Positions 6,317 to 60,977 of a stretch of 64,000 nt of DNA are shown piece by piece (the first letter of the stretch is position 1; each line of letters begins with the position of its first letter). Both the position numbers and the translations under genes were made by a program. Under the pieces are notes generated by a model that had not been told where the DNA came from, searched no databases, and worked only from the letters and a program-made list of their open reading frames with translations. This DNA is from Anaerolineae bacterium. GTDB lineage: Bacteria; Chloroflexota; Anaerolineae; UBA3071. Where the stretch lies: positions 1-64,000 of the forward strand of contig JARYMM010000006.1 in NCBI GenBank assembly GCA_029907105.1. Direction: 5' to 3'.

Positions 6317-7615
6317 ATGCTTGAGCGTTATTCTCGCCCCCAGATGCGGGCCATCTGGACGCAGGAGAACCAGTACCGGCAGTGGCTGCGGGTCGAGCTG
6401 GCCGCCGCCGAGGTGATGGCTGAGCTAGGCCGGGTGCCCCAGGAAGCCTGGGCTCAGATTCGAGAACGAGCCGACTTCACCGTGGAAGGGGTGGCCGCAC
6501 GAGAAGCGGCGACCCGCCACGATCTGGTCGCTTTCCTGGAGGAGGTCATCGCCCACGTGGGAGAGGAGGCCGGCCGCTATCTCCACCTGGGGCTGACCTC
6601 CTCGGACGTGAAGGATACTGGTCTGGCCCTGCAACTGGTCGCCGCCCTGGACATCCTCCTGAACGAGGCCGACGATTGCGTTGCCGCGCTCAAAGCACGT
6701 GCCTTGGCCGAACGGAACACGATAATGGTCGGTCGCACCCACGGGGTGCACGCCGAACCGGTGACGTTGGGGTTGACGTTGGCGCTGTGGGCTTTCGAGA
6801 TGGCGCGGAACCGGGAGCGTCTGGCGCGGGCGCGGGAGATCGCCGCTGTGGGCAAGCTCTCCGGGCCGGTGGGGGCCTACACCAGCGTGGACCCTGAGAT
6901 CGAGCGACGAGTGTGCGAACGACTGGAGCTGCGGCCAGCCTCCATCAGCAGCCAGGTCCTGCAGCGGGACCGGCAGGCTGAGGTGATGTGGGCCTGCGCG
7001 ATAACGGCAGCGACGGTGGAAAAGATCGCCACCCAGGTGCGCATCTGGTCACGCACGGAACTCGGCGAGGTGGAGGAGCCGTTTCGCGCCGGGCAGCGGG
7101 GCTCCTCGGCCATGCCGCACAAGCGCAACCCCATCCTCAGTGAGCGGCTTTCGGGGCTGGCGCGGCTTTTCCGAGGCTGGTTGGTGGCAGCGCTGGAAGA
7201 TGTGGCCCTGTGGGATCAGCGGGACATGACCCACTCCTCGGTGGAACGCTTCATCCTGCCCGATGCCACCATCACGCTGGACTATATGCTCGATCGGCTG
7301 CGGGAGCTGATAGAGACGATGGTCGTGTATCCGGAGCGGATGGCGGCCAACCTGGCCCGCACGCAGGGGCTCATCGGCAGTCAGCAGGTGCTGCTGGCAT
7401 TGGTGGAGCGGGGGATGGGACGCCAGGAGGCATACGAACGGGTGCAGCGAGCGGCGATGGCAGCCTGGCGAGGGGAAGGTCACTTCGCCGCTCTGCTTGC
7501 TGACGACGAGGTCATTGCCAGCTTCATCTCGCCGGAGGAGCTGAACGGGCTGCTCGACCCGACGGCAATGCTGAGACATGTGAATGAAGTATTCGAGCGT
7601 TTGCAAGAGGTGTGA
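6317..7615 (+). CDS. purB: Adenylosuccinate lyase
   Basis: MLERYSRPQMRAIWT; GLTSSDVKDT; GSSAMPHKRNPILSE. Confidence 0.97.
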   Translation: MLERYSRPQMRAIWTQENQYRQWLRVELAAAEVMAELGRVPQEAWAQIRERADFTVEGVAAREAATRHDLVAFLEEVIAHVGEEAGRYLHLGLTSSDVKDTGLALQLVAALDILLNEADDCVAALKARALAERNTIMVGRTHGVHAEPVTLGLTLALWAFEMARNRERLARAREIAAVGKLSGPVGAYTSVDPEIERRVCERLELRPASISSQVLQRDRQAEVMWACAITAATVEKIATQVRIWSRTELGEVEEPFRAGQRGSSAMPHKRNPILSERLSGLARLFRGWLVAALEDVALWDQRDMTHSSVERFILPDATITLDYMLDRLRELIETMVVYPERMAANLARTQGLIGSQQVLLALVERGMGRQEAYERVQRAAMAAWRGEGHFAALLADDEVIASFISPEELNGLLDPTAMLRHVNEVFERLQEV

Positions 7616-7647
7616 GACCTCTCAACTATCGGGCGGCGAGGAAGACC

Positions 7648-8958
7648 ATGCAAGCTGAACTGATCATCGCTCATGCCGCTCAATTGCTTACCGTGGCCGG
7701 GGGACACGGCCCCAAACGGGGTACGGCCATGGCCGATGTGGGTATCATCGAGGATGGCGCGCTGGCGGTGCGGCGGGGGCGCATTGTCGCCGTGGGGCCG
7801 ACGAACGAGGTACTGGCCGACTTCGCCGCCGCGCGCGTCGTTGACGCCCGTGGCAAGGTGGTCCTGCCCGGCTTCGTGGACCCGCACACCCATCTGGTGT
7901 GGGCCGGCGACCGGGCCGGCGAGTTCGAGCAGCGGGTGGCCGGGGCCACGTACATGGAAATCATGGCCTCCGGCGGAGGCATCATGTCCACCGTGCGGGC
8001 CACCCGCGCCGCCCCGCTGGATGAACTGGTGGCCCAGAGCCGCGCCCGTCTTGACCGCATGCTGGCCCACGGCACGACCACCGCCGAGGTGAAGACCGGT
8101 TACGGGCTGGAGCTGCAGGCGGAGTTGAAGATGCTGGCCGCCATCGCCCTGCTCGACGCCCAACATCCGGTTGACCTGGTGCCCACCTTTCTGGGCGCCC
8201 ATGCGGTGCCTGCTGAATACGCCGGCCGCGCCGACGAATATGTGGACCTGGTTGTGGATGTGATGCTGCCTGCGATAGCACAAGGGGTTAAGGGTTACGG
8301 GTCAGGGGAAAACGATCTAACCCCCAACCCCTCCCCCATAACCCCTGTCTTCTGTGATGTCTTTTGCGATCAGGGAGCCTTCACGTTGGAGCAATCCCGA
8401 CGCGTCCTGGAGGCGGCCAGGGCCTATGGCATGGGGCTGAAAATCCACGCCGACGAGTTCGAACCCCTGGGCGGCACGCGGCTGGCCGTGGAGCTGGGTG
8501 CGATCTCCGCCGATCACCTGGTGTGCACGTCGCCGGAGGAGATCGAGCTGTTGGCCCAATCGGACACCATCGGGGTGGCGCTGCCGGGCACGCCCTTCGG
8601 GCTGGGGCATCACCAGTACACGCCGGCGCGGGCGTTCATCGAAGCGGGCGGCGCGTTGGCCCTGGCCACGGACCTCAACCCCGGCACCTGCTGGTGCGAG
8701 TCCATGCCCTTCATCATCGCCCTGGCCTGCCGATACATGCACCTGACGCCGGCCGAGGCCATCACCGCCGCCACGCGCAACGCGGCCTGCGCCGTAGGCC
8801 TGGGGGAGGAAACGGGGAGCCTGGAGGTAGGCAAGCGGGCCGACGTCATCATCCTGGAGGTGGACGATTACCGCCATCTGGGTTACCGCTTCGGCACCAA
8901 TCCGGTGCAGACGGTCATCAAACGAGGAGAGATTGTGAAGGAGGGAAGCACAGCATGA
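7648..8958 (+). CDS. hutI: Imidazolonepropionase with an in-frame repeat-derived insertion
   Basis: GFVDPHTHLVWAGDRAGEFEQR; FCDVFCDQGAFT; ALATDLNPGTCWCESM; insertion GVKGYGSGENDLTPNPSPITP precedes VFCDVFCDQGAFT. Confidence 0.95.
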   Translation: MQAELIIAHAAQLLTVAGGHGPKRGTAMADVGIIEDGALAVRRGRIVAVGPTNEVLADFAAARVVDARGKVVLPGFVDPHTHLVWAGDRAGEFEQRVAGATYMEIMASGGGIMSTVRATRAAPLDELVAQSRARLDRMLAHGTTTAEVKTGYGLELQAELKMLAAIALLDAQHPVDLVPTFLGAHAVPAEYAGRADEYVDLVVDVMLPAIAQGVKGYGSGENDLTPNPSPITPVFCDVFCDQGAFTLEQSRRVLEAARAYGMGLKIHADEFEPLGGTRLAVELGAISADHLVCTSPEEIELLAQSDTIGVALPGTPFGLGHHQYTPARAFIEAGGALALATDLNPGTCWCESMPFIIALACRYMHLTPAEAITAATRNAACAVGLGEETGSLEVGKRADVIILEVDDYRHLGYRFGTNPVQTVIKRGEIVKEGSTA

Positions 8959-10079
8959 GCACAGTCTACTTTGTACCGGCCCGGGTCAGGCGCTGGGACT
9001 ACAGCGCCAGCCTGGCAGCAGGGCTGGAGCGTCTCATTGAGAAACTGGACTTCAGCCAGGCCATCGGCAAAGACGAGGTTGTGGCCGTCAAAACCCATTT
9101 CGGCTCACACGGGGCCCACCGCATTGTGCGGCCGGTGTTCCTGCGCAAAATCGTCGAGGGCGTCAAAGCGGTCGGCGGCAAGCCCTTCGTCTGCGACACG
9201 GTGCGCATCAACGGCTGGGACTATCTGGAGGTGGCCAACCAGAACGGCATCAACCCGCAGTCGGTGGGCTGTCCGGTGATCCTGGCCGATGGGCTCTTTG
9301 GCTTCGACAGCATCGAGGTGAAGGCCGGCCCGGTGCTGGGCAGCGTGCGCGTGGCCACGGCCATCCACGATGCGCCGGCCATGATCGTGGTCAGCCACTG
9401 CAAGGGGCACATCGAGTCCGGCTATGGCGGCGCCATCAAGAACCTGGCCATGGGCGGCGTGGCCGGCCGGGATCGCGGCGGGGATTGGAGGCAGGCCCGC
9501 GGCCACCTGCACGCCGCTGCCGGGGAGTCTTCGGTCATCCGCGACCCCGAACTGTGCACCCTCTGCCTGCAATGTCTGCACGTCTGCCCCACAGAGGCCA
9601 TCTTCGAGGACGATACGGGGCTGCGGGTGGACGACGAGAAGTGTTGGCGCTGCGGCCGTTGCGAGCGCGTCTGTCCGGAGGGGGCCATCAAGCTGCAGAA
9701 GCGGGGGCAGAACGAGTTCCAGATGGCCCTGGCCGAGGGGGCCCAGGCCGTGTTAAGCACCTTCCAGCCGGGCAAGGTGCTCTTCTTCAACTTCGTGCTG
9801 GAGGTGCAGCCGGAGTGCGATTGCATGCCCGGGGCCGATACGCCCGTGGTGCAGGATCAGGGCATCCTGGCCTCCAGGGACATCGTGGCCATCGAACAGG
9901 CGGCGCTGGACCTGATCAACAACGCCTTGCCCCTGCCGGGGTCTTTGGCCGAAGAGCGGGGCGTGAAGGCCGGCCAGCGCGTCCTGGCCGCGGCGTTGGG
10001 CGTGGATGGGCAATTGCACATTGACGCCGCCGCCCGCATCGGGCTGGGCAGCCGGGAGTATGAGTTGGTGGAACTGTGA
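8955..10079 (+). CDS. DUF362 domain protein with two 4Fe-4S ferredoxin motifs
   Basis: CTLCLQCLHVCPTEA and CWRCGRCERVCPEGA; DUF362-like N-terminus; ATGA overlap with hutI stop. Confidence 0.88.
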   Translation: MSTVYFVPARVRRWDYSASLAAGLERLIEKLDFSQAIGKDEVVAVKTHFGSHGAHRIVRPVFLRKIVEGVKAVGGKPFVCDTVRINGWDYLEVANQNGINPQSVGCPVILADGLFGFDSIEVKAGPVLGSVRVATAIHDAPAMIVVSHCKGHIESGYGGAIKNLAMGGVAGRDRGGDWRQARGHLHAAAGESSVIRDPELCTLCLQCLHVCPTEAIFEDDTGLRVDDEKCWRCGRCERVCPEGAIKLQKRGQNEFQMALAEGAQAVLSTFQPGKVLFFNFVLEVQPECDCMPGADTPVVQDQGILASRDIVAIEQAALDLINNALPLPGSLAEERGVKAGQRVLAAALGVDGQLHIDAAARIGLGSREYELVEL

Positions 10080-10112: not shown

Positions 10113-11108
10113 CTATCCGCTCTCGTTTGCGTTACCGCCCGTTAACTCGTAGCGCCATATGCCGTTCACCCCGGTCACCCTCACCTTTCCCGCCGCCTCC
10201 ATCACGTCCAGGTGCCCCAGGACCTCGGAGACGGCCAGGAAAGTGTCTATGGCCCCCAGGCGGGGAAACAGCGCCTGCACGATGGCCCACACCGTCTGCG
10301 GGCCGGCGGATAGCACTGCCCGGATGTTGTCCAGCCGCTCCTGGTAGAAGGCAAACCGCCGCTCGATCAGCGCCCGGTGATCCTCGATCGGTTCGCCGTG
10401 CCCCGAAAGCACCAGGTCAACGTCCATCTCCGCCACCCGCCGCAGGCTGGCCCAGTACTCCACTAACGGACGGCGACGTTCTGCGCCCTCCCGCTCCGGC
10501 GGCTCGATGATGGCGTTGGAGCTGATGTGCTTGATGAGGTGGTCGCTGCCCAGCAGCAGCCGCGTCTCCCGCTGGTAGAGGCAGATGAGGCCGGCGGCGT
10601 GGCCCGCTGTGTGCAGCACCTCCCACCTCATCTCGCCCAGGCGGAGGGTGTCTCCCTCGTCCACCAGATGATCTACCCGCACAGTGCTGCTGTGGCGGTT
10701 GACGTGGCGGAAGCCGCCGGCCACGCGCAATTGTACGGCCAGCGGCACCCCCGCCGCTCTCAGCAGGCCGGCGTACCAGTTCAGGCTTCCCCCGCTTTCC
10801 TCGTCCCCGCTCAGGCGGGCTGCGCAGCGCGGATGGGCAAGGACCTGCGCCCCGCTGCGCTCGGCCAGCGTCGCCGCCAGGCCGTAGTGGTCGGCATGGT
10901 CGTGGGAGATGACGATACGCTGCAGATCACGCACGCCATAGCCCAGCGCCGCCAACCCCGCCTCCAGTTCCTGCAACGCTTCCGGCGTGCGCGGGCCGGT
11001 GTCCAGCAGGGTCAGTGGCTCCCCCTCCAGCAGGTAAACGTGCACCGGTCCCACGGGGAAGGGGGTGGGAAGAGTGATTTGATGGATTGATGCTGGCCAG
11101 TGGGTCAT
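10113..11108 (-). CDS. MBL-fold metallo-hydrolase
   Basis: ISHDHADHYG; HTAGHAAG; start MTHWPASIHQI at 11108 (longer ORF start is repeat sequence). Confidence 0.88.
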   Translation of the reverse strand: MTHWPASIHQITLPTPFPVGPVHVYLLEGEPLTLLDTGPRTPEALQELEAGLAALGYGVRDLQRIVISHDHADHYGLAATLAERSGAQVLAHPRCAARLSGDEESGGSLNWYAGLLRAAGVPLAVQLRVAGGFRHVNRHSSTVRVDHLVDEGDTLRLGEMRWEVLHTAGHAAGLICLYQRETRLLLGSDHLIKHISSNAIIEPPEREGAERRRPLVEYWASLRRVAEMDVDLVLSGHGEPIEDHRALIERRFAFYQERLDNIRAVLSAGPQTVWAIVQALFPRLGAIDTFLAVSEVLGHLDVMEAAGKVRVTGVNGIWRYELTGGNANESG

Positions 11109-11109
11109 G

Positions 11110-11222
11110 ATGCAAGAGACAGGAGACGGGGAGAGGGGGTGAGGGGGAGACAAGGAGACGGGGAGAGAAAGAGCGAGGTGTCTTTCTCCCCGTCTCCCAG
11201 TCTCCTTGTCACCTTGTCTCGC
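11110..11222. repeat. Word-repeat fold-back element (ggagac/gggaga words then tctcc/ctcccc words)
   Basis: gagacaggagacggggagaggg...gacaaggagacggggagagaaaga then tctttctccccgtctcccagtctccttgtc. Confidence 0.8.
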
Positions 11223-11266
11223 ACCTTCCTTCCTCAAGTGCTGAGCATGGAAGCTCTGCTTTCCAT

Positions 11267-13464: not shown

Positions 13465-13667
13465 GGGTGCATTTCAGTTTTTTGGAAATGTCATTGCGAG
13501 CCGAAGGCGAAGCAATCTCCTGCCAGCTAGTGGGAGATTGCCCTTCGGCAAAGCTCAGGGCAGGCTTCGGCACAAACCATGCCCTGAGCGCAGCGAATGG
13601 GGGCGCGCCTCGCAATGACACAGGCCAGGCTGGCTCTCGCTCTCGCCACTAAAGTGAAATACGCCCG
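13465..13667. repeat. MITE-like palindromic element, complete copy
   Basis: Outer imperfect TIR gggtgcatttcagtttt / taaagtgaaatacgccc; inner perfect TIR tgtcattgcgag (13489-13500) / ctcgcaatgaca (13609-13620). Confidence 0.85.
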
Positions 13668-13766
13668 CTTGCCTTCCGCGCCTTGACAGCAGCCTGGCCT
13701 GGTGCTAGAATATGGCCCATCACAACACAGCGAACACCGAACTCCGAACCCTTACAGGAGGAATAG

Positions 13767-14660
13767 GTGAAGAAAATCGTCGAATGTGTGCCCAACTTCA
13801 GCGAGGGACGGCGGCAGCCGGTCATTGACGCCATCGCCAAGGCCATCGCCTCCGTGCAGGGCGTGCGCATCCTCGACGTGCAATCGGATGCCGACCACAA
13901 CCGCACGGTGGTGACCTTCGTAGGCGACCCGGAGGCGGTGACCGAAGGCGCTTTTCAGGGGATCGCCACCGCGACGCGGTTGATTGACCTGAACCACCAT
14001 CGCGGGGAGCATCCCCGCATCGGCGCCGCCGACGTGGTGCCCCTGGTGCCCGTGCGCGGCGTGACCATGGAGGAGTGCGTGGCCCTGGCGCGGCAGCTCG
14101 GCCAGCGCGTGGGCGAGGAGCTGAACATCCCCGTCTACCTCTACGAGGAGGCGGCCACGCGGCCCGACCGCCGCAACCTGGCCGACATCCGCCGCGGGGA
14201 GTACGAAGGGCTGAAGGAGGAAATCCTCACCAACCCCGACCGGGCGCCCGATTTCGGCCCGGCGCGGCTGGGGCCGGCCGGCGCCACCGTCATCGGCGCC
14301 CGGCCCTTCCTCATCGCCTACAATGTCTTCCTGACCACCGACAACGTGGAAATCGCTCGCCAGATCGCCCGCGCCGTGCGCCATTCCAGCGGCGGCCTGC
14401 GTTATGTCAAGGCACTGGGGTTGTTGGTCAACGGCAAGGCGCAGGTGTCCATGAACCTGACCGACTTCCGCCATACGCCCGTGCACCGCGTGGTGGAGAT
14501 GATCCGCCGCGAGGCGGCCCGCTACGGCGTGGCCATAGAGCGCAGCGAGCTCATCGGCCTGATCCCCCAGCAGGCGCTGTTCGACGCCGCCCAGTGGTAT
14601 CTGCAACTCGACGGCTTCACCCCCGACCAGGTGCTGGAGAACCGACTGCAAGAGGCGTGA
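13767..14660 (+). CDS. ftcD: Glutamate formimidoyltransferase (short form, no cyclodeaminase domain)
   Basis: KKIVECVPNFSEGRR; NHHRGEHPRIGAADVVPLVP; LTDFRHTPVHRVVE. Confidence 0.93.
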   Translation: MKKIVECVPNFSEGRRQPVIDAIAKAIASVQGVRILDVQSDADHNRTVVTFVGDPEAVTEGAFQGIATATRLIDLNHHRGEHPRIGAADVVPLVPVRGVTMEECVALARQLGQRVGEELNIPVYLYEEAATRPDRRNLADIRRGEYEGLKEEILTNPDRAPDFGPARLGPAGATVIGARPFLIAYNVFLTTDNVEIARQIARAVRHSSGGLRYVKALGLLVNGKAQVSMNLTDFRHTPVHRVVEMIRREAARYGVAIERSELIGLIPQQALFDAAQWYLQLDGFTPDQVLENRLQEA

Positions 14661-14756
14661 GCAAGAGGCAGGAAGCAAGAAGCAAGAGGCAAGAGGCAAG
14701 AAGCAAGAAGAACGGGCGTTTGAGCTTTGGAGTTTGAGCTTTGGAGTTTCTGGTAG
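14660..14756. repeat. Word-repeat element: (gcaagagg/gcaagaag)n followed by two gagctttggagttt units
   Basis: 14661-14698 identical to 51172-51209 (38 nt); ttgagctttggagtttgagctttggagttt. Confidence 0.85.
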
Positions 14757-36613: not shown

Positions 36614-36772
36614 TGTCACCCTGAGCGCAGCGAAGGGTCTGAGTGCAGCGAAGGGTCTACCTCGAAAATAGACGCCTGGACCATTTTCGTCCCTGGTGGT
36701 GTCCGCAGGGACGTGACAACTCCTCTCATGTTGGAAGAGATTCTTCGCTCCCTGCGGTCGCTCAGAATGACA
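36614..36772. repeat. MITE-like element with tgtcaccctgagcg / cgctcagaatgaca termini
   Basis: Imperfect TIRs with tandem gcagcgaagggtct; contains the 65-nt repeat 36657-36721. Confidence 0.65.
36657..36721 (-). repeat. Dispersed 65-nt repeat, copy 1
   Basis: Reverse complement matches 60867-60931 at 63 of 65 positions. Confidence 0.93.
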
Positions 36773-49644: not shown

Positions 49645-51152
49645 CCAGGGAAACCTATATCCTGGCCCACGATCTGGGCACCACGGGCAATAAAGCCAAT
49701 CTCTTCAACGGACGGGGACAGCCGGTGGCCAGCAGTTTCGTCGGCTACGAGACGGCCTACCCTCACCCCGGCTGGGCGGAGCAGGAGGCCGCCGGCTGGT
49801 GGCGGGCGGTGTGCCAGTCAACACGGCGACTGCTGGCGCAAAGCGGGGTTGCCGCAGGTGACATCGCCGTCATCAGCTTCAGCGGGCAGATGATGGGCGC
49901 GCTGCCCGTGGACGGGGAAGGCAGGCCACTGCGCCCGTCCATCATCTGGGCCGACCAGCGGGCCACGGCCGAGGCCGGGCTCCTGGCCGAACGCTGCGGC
50001 TTCCAGGAGGTCTATCGCCGTACAGGGCACCGCGCTGGCGCTTCCTATAGCGCGGCCAAGATGCTGTGGATCCAACGCCATCAGCCGGAACTGTATGCCC
50101 GCGCCCACAAGTTCCTGCAGGCCAAGGACTACGCCGCCTACAAGCTCACCGGCGTCTTCGCCACCGACTATTGCGATGCCTCGGGCACCAATCTCTTCGA
50201 CCTGGCGCGGCGCGACTGGGCGCTGGATATCGTGGAGGCTATCGGGCTGGACCCGCACAAGCTGCCGCCGGTACATCCGTCCACGGCTGTCATCGGCCGG
50301 GTGACGCCACAGGCAGCAGCGGAGACGGGCCTTCTGGCGGGCACGCCGGTGGTCATCGGCGGCGGCGACGGCGGCTGCGCCACCGTGGGGGCGGGTTCCG
50401 TGCAGCCGGGCGACGCCTACAACTACGTCGGTTCCTCGTCCTGGATCGCCGTGACCGCCGAGCAACCCCTCTACGATGCGCAGATGCGCACCTTCACCTT
50501 CGCCCATCTGGACCCGCAGCTCTGTTTCCCCACCGGCACGATGCAGTGCGCCGGCGGTTCCTTCGACTGGCTGGAGCGGCTGCTGCGCGGCGATGGCCAG
50601 GGCCAACTGTACGAGGAACTGAGCGCTGCGGCGGCGGAGGTACCGCCGGGGGCCGGTGGGCTCCTCTTCCTGCCCTATCTTATCGGCGAACGCAGCCCGC
50701 ACTGGAACCCGCGGGCGCGCGGGGCCTTTGTCGGGCTGACCATGACGCACGGCCGCGCCGAGATGGCCCGTGCCGTGCTGGAAGGCGTGGCCTTCAACCT
50801 CAAGATCATCCTCGATGCCTTCCTGGAGCAGGGGGCGGAGATCACCGCCATGCGGCTCATCGGCGGCGGGGCGCGCAGCCCCGTGTGGCGGCAGATCCTG
50901 GCCGATGTCTACGGGCTGCCCATCCTGCGGCCGGCGCTGCTGGCCGAGGCCACGGCGCTGGGCGCGGCCATCGCCGGCGGCGTAGGGGTGGGGCTGTTCC
51001 CCGACTTCAGCGTGGCCCACGAGTTCGTGCAGGTAGAAGAGGCAGAGCGGCCCAATGGCGCAGCGCAGGCGCGCTATGCCGAGGTCTATCCGCTGTTCCG
51101 GGAGGCCTATCGGCTGCTGGAGCCGATGTTCGAGAGATTGGGGCAGGTGTGA
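49641..51152 (+). CDS. FGGY-family carbohydrate kinase
   Basis: ILAHDLGTTGNKANLFNGRG; SFSGQMMGALPVD; YVGSSSWIAVTAEQP; LIGGGARSPVWRQILADV. Confidence 0.93.
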   Translation: MTRETYILAHDLGTTGNKANLFNGRGQPVASSFVGYETAYPHPGWAEQEAAGWWRAVCQSTRRLLAQSGVAAGDIAVISFSGQMMGALPVDGEGRPLRPSIIWADQRATAEAGLLAERCGFQEVYRRTGHRAGASYSAAKMLWIQRHQPELYARAHKFLQAKDYAAYKLTGVFATDYCDASGTNLFDLARRDWALDIVEAIGLDPHKLPPVHPSTAVIGRVTPQAAAETGLLAGTPVVIGGGDGGCATVGAGSVQPGDAYNYVGSSSWIAVTAEQPLYDAQMRTFTFAHLDPQLCFPTGTMQCAGGSFDWLERLLRGDGQGQLYEELSAAAAEVPPGAGGLLFLPYLIGERSPHWNPRARGAFVGLTMTHGRAEMARAVLEGVAFNLKIILDAFLEQGAEITAMRLIGGGARSPVWRQILADVYGLPILRPALLAEATALGAAIAGGVGVGLFPDFSVAHEFVQVEEAERPNGAAQARYAEVYPLFREAYRLLEPMFERLGQV

Positions 51153-51213
51153 GGGAGGCAAGAGGCAAGAAGCAAGAGGCAGGAAGCAAGAAGCAAGAGG
51201 CAAGAGGCAGGGA
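51153..51213. repeat. Word-repeat element (gcaagagg/gcaagaag)n directly after the FGGY kinase stop
   Basis: Shares identical 38 nt with 14661-14698. Confidence 0.9.
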
Positions 51214-51277
51214 GTAGGGCGGGCGGTGGCCCGTTTGTAAACATCGTGCACACAAGACCAGAAAGGAGCATGTCATC

Positions 51278-51586: not shown

Positions 51587-51982
51587 GTGAAGAGCCTGGC
51601 CCTCACCGTGCTGCCGGGGCGGCTGGCCATCTGTCGTCTGGCGGCAGATGCGCCCCTGCCCGCAGGGCTTGATCGCGCCCACTTCTGCTCGGTCACCCGC
51701 ACTCCGGAGGAGCTTTCGCTTGTCCTGCCGGAGGAGATGGTGGAGGCCGGCTGGCAGGCTGAGACAGGTTATCGCGCCCTGCAGGTGCTGGGGCCGCTCG
51801 ATCTCAGCCTGACCGGCGTGCTGGCCGCCCTGGCCGCACCGCTGGCCGCGGCCGGCGTGAGCATTTTCGCCATTTCCACCTACGACACGGACTATGTCCT
51901 GGTCAGGGAGGGCGACCTGGGGAAAGCACAGCGGGCGCTGGTGGCGGCAGGGCATGAGGTGACCGAGTGGCCGGGGCAATGA
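51587..51982 (+). CDS. ACT-domain protein (ACT/CASTOR-like)
   Basis: LALTVLPGRLAICRLAADAPLP; APLAAAGVSIFAISTYDTDYVLVREGDLGKAQRALVAAGH. Confidence 0.82.
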   Translation: MKSLALTVLPGRLAICRLAADAPLPAGLDRAHFCSVTRTPEELSLVLPEEMVEAGWQAETGYRALQVLGPLDLSLTGVLAALAAPLAAAGVSIFAISTYDTDYVLVREGDLGKAQRALVAAGHEVTEWPGQ

Positions 51983-52081
51983 GGCAGCGAGGCACCGGGG
52001 CACAATGAGGCACCGAGGCACCGGGGCACCGAGGCACCGAGGCACCGGGGCACCGAGGCACCGGGGCACTGAGGCACCGGG
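51976..52081. repeat. Word-repeat tract (gaggcaccg/gggcaccg)n
   Basis: Over ten imperfect copies starting at the ACT-gene stop codon. Confidence 0.95.
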
Positions 52082-52125
52082 TAACTTCGCTTGCTTTGAG
52101 TAAGCTGGACAGAAGAGGAGATGCG

Positions 52126-57843: not shown

Positions 57844-58881
57844 ATGAACCTCAGAAGACTCAGTTTGTCCATTGGTGCGCTGGTCGTGTTGGTGCTGCTG
57901 ATCACGGCCTGCGCGCCGCCAGCGGCGGCACCGGCCGCGCCGGAAGCGGCAGCCCCCACTACTACCGGCAAGACCTGCGAAGGCGTGAAGATCATCTTCT
58001 TCCCAGGTGGCCCACCAGGGTGCCCCTTCGCCACCGTCGTTTACAACGGAGCCGTAGCGGCAGCGGCAGACCTGGGCGCCGATGTGGAATACATGTGGTC
58101 GGACTGGAACCCCGAGAAGATGGTCAGCCAATTCAAAGGGGCTATGGCCACCAAGCCTGACGGCATTGCCATCATGGGCCATCCAGGAGATGATGCCTTC
58201 GAGGCGGCCGTGGACGAGGCCAGGGCCAAGGGGATCATCGTTACCAGCCAGAACACGACCCTGCCCAGACTCGAAGCGCGGTACAAGGCCGATGGGTTCG
58301 GCTATGTTGGCCAGGAGCTCTACGAGTCCGGCTACATGCTGGGCCAGGAAGCCATCAGGAGAACAGGCTTCGGCAAGGGCGATCGGGCCATGGTCTGGGG
58401 GCTGTTGTCCGAGCCCACCCGCGGGTTGAGGACCAAGGGCGTCATTGACGCTCTGGAAGAGGCCGGGATGACGGTGGACTACATCGAGATTGACAAGGCC
58501 ACCGATGCTGATGCCACGGCAGGCACCCCGGTCTTCACCGGCTATGTGACGTCCAACCCCGATGTGAAGCTGGTCTGCACCGACCATGGCGGCCTGACCG
58601 CTACTCTGGAGACCTACTTGAAGGCGGCGGGCAAGGGCCCGGACGACATCTACGGCATCGGCTTCGATCTCTCGCCGGCCACGCTGGAGGCGATCCGCGG
58701 CGGATGGACGGACCTGGTGCTTGATCAGCAACCCTTCCTGCAAGGCTATCTGCCCATCGTGCAGATCTGCCTGACCAAGAAGTACCAGTTCTCCGGCCTG
58801 CACATTGACACGGGGTCCGGCTTTGCCCACAAGGACAACGTTGAGGCTCTGGCCCCGCTCGTGGAGAAGCAGATCCGGTAA
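57844..58881 (+). CDS. Periplasmic-binding-protein-2-type sugar ABC substrate-binding lipoprotein
   Basis: VLLITACAPPAAAP lipobox; RbsB-like pattern. Confidence 0.9.
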   Translation: MNLRRLSLSIGALVVLVLLITACAPPAAAPAAPEAAAPTTTGKTCEGVKIIFFPGGPPGCPFATVVYNGAVAAAADLGADVEYMWSDWNPEKMVSQFKGAMATKPDGIAIMGHPGDDAFEAAVDEARAKGIIVTSQNTTLPRLEARYKADGFGYVGQELYESGYMLGQEAIRRTGFGKGDRAMVWGLLSEPTRGLRTKGVIDALEEAGMTVDYIEIDKATDADATAGTPVFTGYVTSNPDVKLVCTDHGGLTATLETYLKAAGKGPDDIYGIGFDLSPATLEAIRGGWTDLVLDQQPFLQGYLPIVQICLTKKYQFSGLHIDTGSGFAHKDNVEALAPLVEKQIR

Positions 58882-59012
58882 TCGGGAGACAGGTAGATTG
58901 GTAGATTGGGAAACTGGTAGATTGGGAAACCGGTAGATCGGTAGATTGGGGCCAGGAAGCCCAACGTACCAATGTACCAATGTACCAATGTACCAATCTA
59001 CCAATCTGCCAA
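58882..59012. repeat. Word-repeat fold-back (ggtagattgg)n / (ccaatctacc/ccaatgtac)n
   Basis: aggtagattggtagattgggaaactggtagattggg...cgtaccaatgtaccaatgtaccaatgtaccaatctaccaatctgcc. Confidence 0.95.
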
Positions 59013-59027
59013 CCAGGAGATGGCTGT

Positions 59028-59830: not shown

Positions 59831-60868
59831 ATGCCCAATCACGCTGCAGAGGGAGTTGAAATGACCTCTACCGCCTCTCAAGCCCGGGTGCAGGCACGCC
59901 ATTTGCCCGCTCTGGCCCGCTTTGCCCGCACGTATGGCCTGCAGATAGGCATCATTTGTGTCCTGCTGGCCATATGGGGGCTTTTCACCATTGGGGCACC
60001 CAAGACCTTCCTCTCATCCGAAATCTACGCTGCCTACATGTCCACCATCCCGTTCTTTGCGGTGATGGCTTTGCCCCTGACCATGGTGGTGATCGCCGGC
60101 GAGATGGATCTCTCATTCCCTTCCATCATGGCCATGGGCATGCTAGTGTTTGTCAGGGTTTTTGAAACCACCGGCAGCGTGCTCCTCTCTTTTATCCTGT
60201 GCCTGGCCGCCGGATTCGCCATCGGGTTACTGAATGGAGTCATCGTGGTCAGGACAGGCATTCCCTCGCTTGTGGCCACCATCGGCACACAGTTCTTCTG
60301 GCGCGGTGCGGTTCTGGTCATCACCGGCGGGAGGCCCGCCTCCCTGGTCCCGATCAAAGGGACGCTCCTGTATAACGCCCTGGTGGGCAGGTGGGGCGGT
60401 TATGTGCCCGCGCAGATGATCTGGACCGTGGTGGTGGCTATCCTCGTGTGGGTCTTGTTGAACCGTCATCAATTCGGCGCGCACGTGTACCTGGTCGGGG
60501 ACAACGAAGACAGTGCCAGGTTAATGGGTGTCAACGCTGACCGGACGAAAATCATGGTCTTTGCCGTCGTTGGCCTTGCCGCGGCCTTCGCCGGCGTCCT
60601 GGCCAGCCTGGAAGTGAATTACTTCTGGGTGACCCTGGGGGAAGGATACATGCTGCGCACGCTGGCCGCCGTGTTCCTGGGCGGCACCTCGGTGTTCGGC
60701 GGCACGGGGACCGTCCTGGGCACTTTCGTCGGCTGCTTCATTATCGGGGCCATCGAAGCCGGCATTGTAGCCGTCGGCCTGACCGGCTTCTGGACGCAAC
60801 TGCTGTATGGCCTGATCATCATCCTCTCCGTGTCCATGCACGCCATGGTAAGGCGAAAATTAGAGTAG
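59831..60868 (+). CDS. Sugar ABC transporter permease (RbsC/FrcC-like)
   Basis: VIAGEMDLSFPSIMAMG; GLLNGVIVVRTGIPSLVATIGT; LAAVFLGGTSVFGGTGTVLGTFVG. Confidence 0.93.
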   Translation: MPNHAAEGVEMTSTASQARVQARHLPALARFARTYGLQIGIICVLLAIWGLFTIGAPKTFLSSEIYAAYMSTIPFFAVMALPLTMVVIAGEMDLSFPSIMAMGMLVFVRVFETTGSVLLSFILCLAAGFAIGLLNGVIVVRTGIPSLVATIGTQFFWRGAVLVITGGRPASLVPIKGTLLYNALVGRWGGYVPAQMIWTVVVAILVWVLLNRHQFGAHVYLVGDNEDSARLMGVNADRTKIMVFAVVGLAAAFAGVLASLEVNYFWVTLGEGYMLRTLAAVFLGGTSVFGGTGTVLGTFVGCFIIGAIEAGIVAVGLTGFWTQLLYGLIIILSVSMHAMVRRKLE

Positions 60869-60931
60869 TTGTCACGTCCCTGCGGACACCACCAGGGACG
60901 AAAATGGTCAAGGCATCTATTTTCGAGGTAG
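60867..60931 (+). repeat. Dispersed 65-nt repeat, copy 2 (inverted relative to 36657-36721)
   Basis: agttgtcacgtccctgcggacaccaccagggacgaaaatggtcaaggcatctattttcgaggtag. Confidence 0.93.
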
Positions 60932-60977
60932 AACCCGCTGCGAAGCGGGATGCGGAGCTGCCTTTTGGGGGAGGGGG

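Follow-up and report, generated by a model that had tools for sequence, protein, structure and literature searches.

In the stretch of 64,000 nt analysed here (the window), the imidazolonepropionase gene hutI contains a fold-back array of 7-nt words in frame with its coding sequence. We consider it likely that this segment is one of many degenerate arrays of 7-nt words that are scattered across the genome, use genome-specific words and, within genes, persist at permissive protein loops. In the genomes compared below, the words of such arrays are genome-specific, fold-back arrangements are frequent, and arrays recur in frame in the same loops.

The array in hutI and its protein

The array (Table 1) comprises four G-rich 7-nt words, the six-base spacer ACGATC and four complementary C-rich words in a 63-base stretch; written out in full, it starts with a single A and closes with a single T. 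The sequence is as quoted in the original prediction, which described G-rich words followed by their complement, and the 8-mers at its ends (AGGGGTTA/TAACCCCT) are indeed exact complements, 48 nt apart. The 7-nt unit and the G-quadruplex motif had been overlooked, as had the natural length variation of the loop concerned. The two arms consist of head-to-tail 7-nt words, with lag-7 values of 0.79 and 0.71. Self-complementarity extends to 42 of 64 bases, a value matched by 2 of 7,992 64-mers sampled in the window (mean 25.8, sd 3.2). The predicted RNA fold (-32.3 kcal/mol, z = -2.9) was equalled by none of 200 shuffles, and the DNA fold (z = -2.1) by three of 200. A known RNA element was rejected, as Rfam gave no match in window positions 7600-9000.

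Table 1. Features of the hutI locus, in window coordinates
Feature	Position	Strand	Basis or remark
hutI, imidazolonepropionase	7648-8958	+	TIGR01224 477 bits; closest solved relative 2bb0
Fold-back heptamer word array in hutI, in frame	8283-8346	+	peptide GVKGYGSGENDLTPNPSPITP; sequence, self-complementarity, lag-7, HutI alignment, low-pLDDT loop
G-rich arm: GGGGTTA AGGGTTA CGGGTCA GGGGAAA	8284-8311	+	sequence, lag-7, arm comparison
G-quadruplex motif (canonical) in G-rich arm	8284-8308	+	sequence
C-rich arm: TAACCCC CAACCCC TCCCCCA TAACCCC	8318-8345	+	complements G-rich arm; sequence, fold

The position within hutI, likewise proposed before, is borne out by a reading frame that begins with ATG, stays open through the repeat segment and ends with the stop at 8958, and whose product scores 477.2 bits against the curated HutI model TIGR01224 (cut-off 298). 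The nearest solved structure, both by sequence and by fold, is HutI of B. subtilis (2bb0; TM 0.92/0.97). An AlphaFold2 model built from 57 HutIs has a mean pLDDT of 93.5 overall, with values of 51-60 within the insert, which in this model occupies codons 213-233 between a helix (195-211) and a strand (235-241). The insert is thus predicted to be a disordered surface loop. In TIM-type barrels, loops that follow a helix and precede a strand face away from the active site. The residues which, from knowledge of the amidohydrolase superfamily, we take to form the metal/catalytic site (H80, H82, H267, H290 and D342) all lie outside the insert, most of them in invariant alignment columns. The insert is probably located on the non-catalytic side of the HutI barrel; because its site is an alpha-to-beta loop, which in such barrels points away from the active site, we infer that it is most likely a translated passenger.

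A surface loop had been foreseen in the original prediction, and the structural model agrees; that this loop is short does not hold in general, since the segment between MLPA and DVFC, by which we define it, measures 30 to 123 nt across the HutIs examined. Similarly, the 21 residues said to be added are encoded, but the loop is naturally variable in length and the net gain is about 13 residues when compared with the closest orthologues, whose loops have 16 residues, and about 17 when compared with short-loop HutIs.

Arrays elsewhere in the genome

In about 0.97 Mb of the window's own genome, sampled by stretches, 58 dispersed arrays had a lag of 7 and 23 a lag of 8; lags 9, 10, 11 and 13 gave none. 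Tandem unit lengths in this sample were almost exclusively 7 and 8, plus their multiples or codon multiples, and the absence of other unit lengths suggests a fixed-length process that generates 7- and 8-nt units. A complementary array was present within 120 nt at 19 of 85 loci, compared with 2 of 85 when arms were swapped between loci.

A pattern search of the whole genome for the hutI word, allowing one mismatch, gave 13 matches, several of them as opposite-strand pairs; with a looser form of the word and at most one mismatch, 32 matches were obtained versus 5 for the reversed control. As matches at three mismatches were no more numerous than those of the reversed control, only close matches were used. 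G-rich arrays of the hutI word are dispersed at about 20 places (20 were read) and vary in length. No pair of G-rich arms shares three identical words in register, and word order shared between arms is in modest excess over shuffles (169 vs 140.8, sd 7.7). Recent copying of whole elements was rejected, the arm-order test having revealed no near-identical arms. A further fold-back of the hutI word, apparently intergenic, is found about 1 kb past the window end (C100:65018-65085, L300). Several arrays each, apparently at higher density than elsewhere, were seen at L244, L246 and L250 (contigs C108, C112 and C120), many of them in long membrane-protein ORFs (DUF2298, TMEM260-like, PMT_2).

Arrays of the hutI word are present in frame in RtcA (RNA 3'-phosphate cyclase), MurF, MurD and a DECH helicase of the same genome, others being intergenic. 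In-gene arrays were counted only with Pfam or NCBIfam support, because some arrays gave a positive hexamer coding score on both strands. Each of the four proteins scores above its family cut-off and is 24-30 residues longer than the profile (RtcA, 354 residues against 325 profile positions; MurF, 448 against 418; MurD, 468 against 440; DECH helicase, 760 against 736). The peptide GVKGYGSG is common to MurF and HutI. MurF is a normally essential cell-wall enzyme. The genome has one MurF and one MurD over cut-off, and because each is single, the array-bearing genes very probably represent the working copies. Further arrays of the hutI word were detected in ORFs for an alpha-L-fucosidase, a GT4 glycosyltransferase and membrane proteins, and arrays of other words break Pfam domains such as GT2, GT9, DUF2298 and an NRPS AMP-binding C-terminal domain. 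Among 30 MurF genes, four have strong lag-7 arrays of differing words in the same loop, and none has such an array elsewhere in the gene. In RtcA, 18 of 19 relatives have a plain loop with no array; the remaining one, from another family, has a G-rich fold-back of its own at the same site.

The window contains additional repeats. Within 10113-11237, the repeat part 11116-11235 is an octamer-type fold-back (GGAGACGG.../...CCGTCTCC) that yields the most self-complementary 64-mer sampled in the window (46/64); it lies a short distance upstream of what is probably the true start of a gene on the minus strand, and the ORF caller takes it for an N-terminal extension. Another octamer fold-back, at 58873-59016, has words like AGATTGGT and ACCAATGT, and its CAATCTAC-type word is found again on several other contigs of the genome. 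Separate arrays at 14633-14729 and 51130-51226 use the same 7-nt word (GCAAGAG/GCAAGAA), and an 8-nt word array (GGCACCGA/GGCACCGG) is present at 51951-52093. A direct repeat of about 100 nt (1-104 and 13590-13693, 86% identical) appears to represent a dispersed repeat distinct from the others. Two inverted copies of 80 nt (36653-36732 and 60856-60935) are 93% complementary and include an internal hairpin, GTCCCTGGTGGTGTCCGCAGGGAC.

The HutI loop in relatives and the origin of the arrays

Strong 7-nt periodicity, defined as lag-7 at 16/21 or better, was scored in 168 HutI genes: 16 of them show it within the loop and none outside it, most HutIs having no loop array. The 16 include one species entered twice (L062/L144); the window's array is not among them, being too degenerate for this strict threshold when scored whole (lag-7 0.71). 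The only lags that rise in the loop across the 168 genes are 7 and 14. The loop word differs in nearly every HutI lineage. Fold-backs are built from GACCGAA (L146), GAGATTG (L148), AATTCAA (L180) and GCAGATG (L154); other words are CAACACG (L159), AATTCGA (L156, L172, L163), AAAAGTC (L058), CACGCAC (L121), TGCATCC (L027), CGTCACT (L070), CAAAATT (L164), GAAGGAT (L138, weaker) and CAAATCC (L012, with a degenerate form in L039/L040). Loop arrays are frequently direct only, with no fold-back, as in L012, L121 and L027. The sequences analysed derive nearly all from metagenome assemblies; arrays are present in many independent assemblies, one of them on a 1.96 Mb contig (L159).

As to whether close orthologues have a non-repetitive segment of the same length, which would have spoken against the original prediction, the answer is divided: L041, L014 and L043, with about 70% identical HutIs, have non-repetitive loop segments of similar length, as do many other HutIs, but the three closest orthologues (L039, L040 and L012) carry a short array of a 7-nt word other than the window's. 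On a HutI tree built without the loop, array presence changed at least 9 times and the word at least 17 times, these counts being approximate because the quick search left many weakly supported forks. Every member of one eight-gene clade (support 100) has an array in its loop, and no two of these arrays are the same (that of L160, AAATCGA, was identified by eye), with about 80-83% DNA identity between the gene pairs measured. Two congeners share an identical AATTCGA loop at 84% identity in the remaining gene. In the L160 loop (HutI of G117), the AAATCGA array is broken by another hairpin-type repeat, CTGTCCTGGGCGAAGCGAAGGACC, possibly a nested insertion. Among the genomes examined, none that is closely related had an empty hutI loop; the search at family level reached one other genome only, which had no hutI at the threshold used.

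Words were also compared between whole genomes. GACCGAA, the hutI word of G039, has 15 matches in that genome including hutI and none in six other genomes, one of which is a congener. GAGATTG/AATCTCC, the hutI word of G216, has 145 matches there and one in the window's genome; it is also common in two further members of the G216 family. The window's hutI word is found frequently in its own genome as well as in G058, and it is absent or rare in G007, G074 and G086, the genomes of the closest HutI relatives.

The apparently tolerated takeover of a loop, as originally proposed, is supported by the alignment, the structure prediction, the sister copies and the recurrent occupation of the loop in relatives. 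Judged from these sequences, scattered repeats seem to have occupied dispensable parts of proteins again and again. According to our proposal, each genome would have its own set of words rather than a fixed family sequence, often arranged as words, a short spacer and then complementary words. Arrays would land in or overwrite many sites of the genome, and within genes they would be retained only at places such as surface loops and linkers, where additional residues are tolerated, provided that no stop arises and that the net length is divisible by three (three words are 21 nt, or 7 codons). They may spread by array copying between sites, e.g. through template switching at hairpins or a mobilisation akin to that of Rickettsia palindromic elements (RPEs). 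A further-reaching reading, whose chances we rate as slightly short of even, is that the Anaerolineae harbour an unrecognised class of sequence-plastic mobile repeat, in which species-specific lexicons of 7- and 8-nt words are actively copied from site to site and time and again overwrite the same permissive loops in core enzymes. If true, the loop would be replaced wholesale from species to species within a conserved gene. Against copying of arrays speaks that the arms of the hutI word family are not near-identical. No clear mobilising enzyme was found in the window's own genome, the sole tyrosine-transposase match being partial.

Local slippage combined with template switching stays a serious rival, because no two arms match over three words in register. 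An accidental repeat in the loop would grow by 7-nt slippage, and template switching at the fork would generate the fold-back with no copying between sites. We regard such a local origin as conceivable, if rather doubtful. It is in line with arms that are degenerate and not copies of one another and with the frequent direct arrays in the HutI loop, and template switching has been proposed as a source of coding palindromes (PMC6649704). It is weakened because the loop word matches the lexicon of its genome, being the word dispersed elsewhere in it. Moreover, close relatives with genes about 80% identical carry unrelated words, and slippage should also yield units other than 7 and 8, which are absent from the own-genome sample.

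The other explanations appear to us improbable to varying degrees. An array kept for its function, with an mRNA G-quadruplex or hairpin tuning hutI translation or with a binding peptide, would fit the G-quadruplex motif and the AATTCGA loop shared by the two congeners; yet G-rich words are not what other species carry, a fold-back is lacking in many arrays, loop peptides of relatives are unrelated and most HutIs do without an array, so that we think this improbable. Very improbable is a classical REP/RAYT element or MITE, in which a transposase of its own would mobilise a conserved palindrome. The arrays are dispersed, palindromic and also found within genes, like REPs and RPEs (PMC3733652, PMC2229807), but they have a degenerate 7-nt unit in variable copy number instead of a fixed family sequence or tag, the hutI segment has no Rfam match, and the single Y1_Tnp match in the genome is weak and partial (29 bits, positions 31-120 of 121). 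A REP/RAYT origin was rejected on this match and the missing tag. That we are dealing with an ordinary length-variable loop, whose low-complexity codons look repetitive by chance, accords with the range of 30 to 123 nt and with the long non-repetitive loops of several relatives. It is hardly credible given that lag 7, no multiple of a codon, is confined to the loop within the HutI genes and is in excess there over the other non-codon lags tested, and that the same word is found again in other genes and at intergenic sites.

In these bacteria, known for the most part from metagenomes, one HutI loop is seen filled by differing words in lineage after lineage, and the MurF loop likewise. These loops provide many natural replicates for studying how proteins gain loops from non-coding repeats and where inserts are tolerated, and they also bear on the process that makes units of 7 and 8 nt and almost no other length.

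Comparison with known repeat systems

Until now, in-frame repeats of a selfish type in core genes had been described chiefly in Rickettsia and in some bacteria with REPs. In the literature, as far as our partial coverage extends, we found no report in which 7-nt words particular to each species take one another's place in a single enzyme loop. RPEs (Ogata et al. 2000) are palindromes of 105-146 bp that share a family sequence and have inverted repeats at their ends; they occur in frame in conserved Rickettsia genes as well as between genes, add tens of residues that are apparently tolerated, and an RPE-bearing guanylate kinase has been found active, its affinity for the substrate being changed (PMC2229807). 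The arrays described here are likewise palindromic repeats in conserved genes (HutI, MurF, MurD, RtcA, DECH helicase) and at intergenic sites. In contrast to RPEs, they share only words and no family sequence of some 100-150 bp bounded by terminal inverted repeats; they are built from a degenerate 7-mer, size is variable, words differ between species and one loop is taken by different words. By analogy, the hutI arrays would work like RPEs, yet without a fixed family sequence.

REPs located within genes add 20-30 residues, in one case at about the same site in recB of two species, and those of the GTAG and CGTC classes have tagged stems, with a RAYT transposase for the GTAG class (PMC3733652). 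Our arrays resemble them as small palindromic repeats within known genes and differ in having no tag and no clear RAYT; no GTAG- or CGTC-tagged stem-loop was detected in the hutI element or in the listed G-rich arms. Tandem repeats also make disordered protein segments in Borg elements, whose in-gene units are always divisible by three (PMC9879509), whereas the unit here is 7 and the frame is kept by total length alone. STRR heptanucleotide repeats of cyanobacteria and the TAACTGA repeats of Beggiatoaceae are direct, dispersed 7-nt repeats; in the part of that source available to us they are mainly intergenic, with one or few words and no fold-back in an enzyme reported (PMC4679880). G-rich heptamers are also known from Xanthomonas and Nostoc, where they are dispersed and form G-quadruplexes; in Xanthomonas, 70-75 sites have two inverted arrays close together, e.g. 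of GGGAATC repeats, and 7-11% of the heptamer repeats are at least partly in genes (PMC4692102). Dispersed G-rich 7-nt words, inverted pairs and a G-quadruplex motif are shared with the arrays described here. That study, however, reported one word type per genome, mainly in intergenic positions (PMC4692102), whereas our arrays use many words per genome and stand in frame in defined enzyme loops across species.
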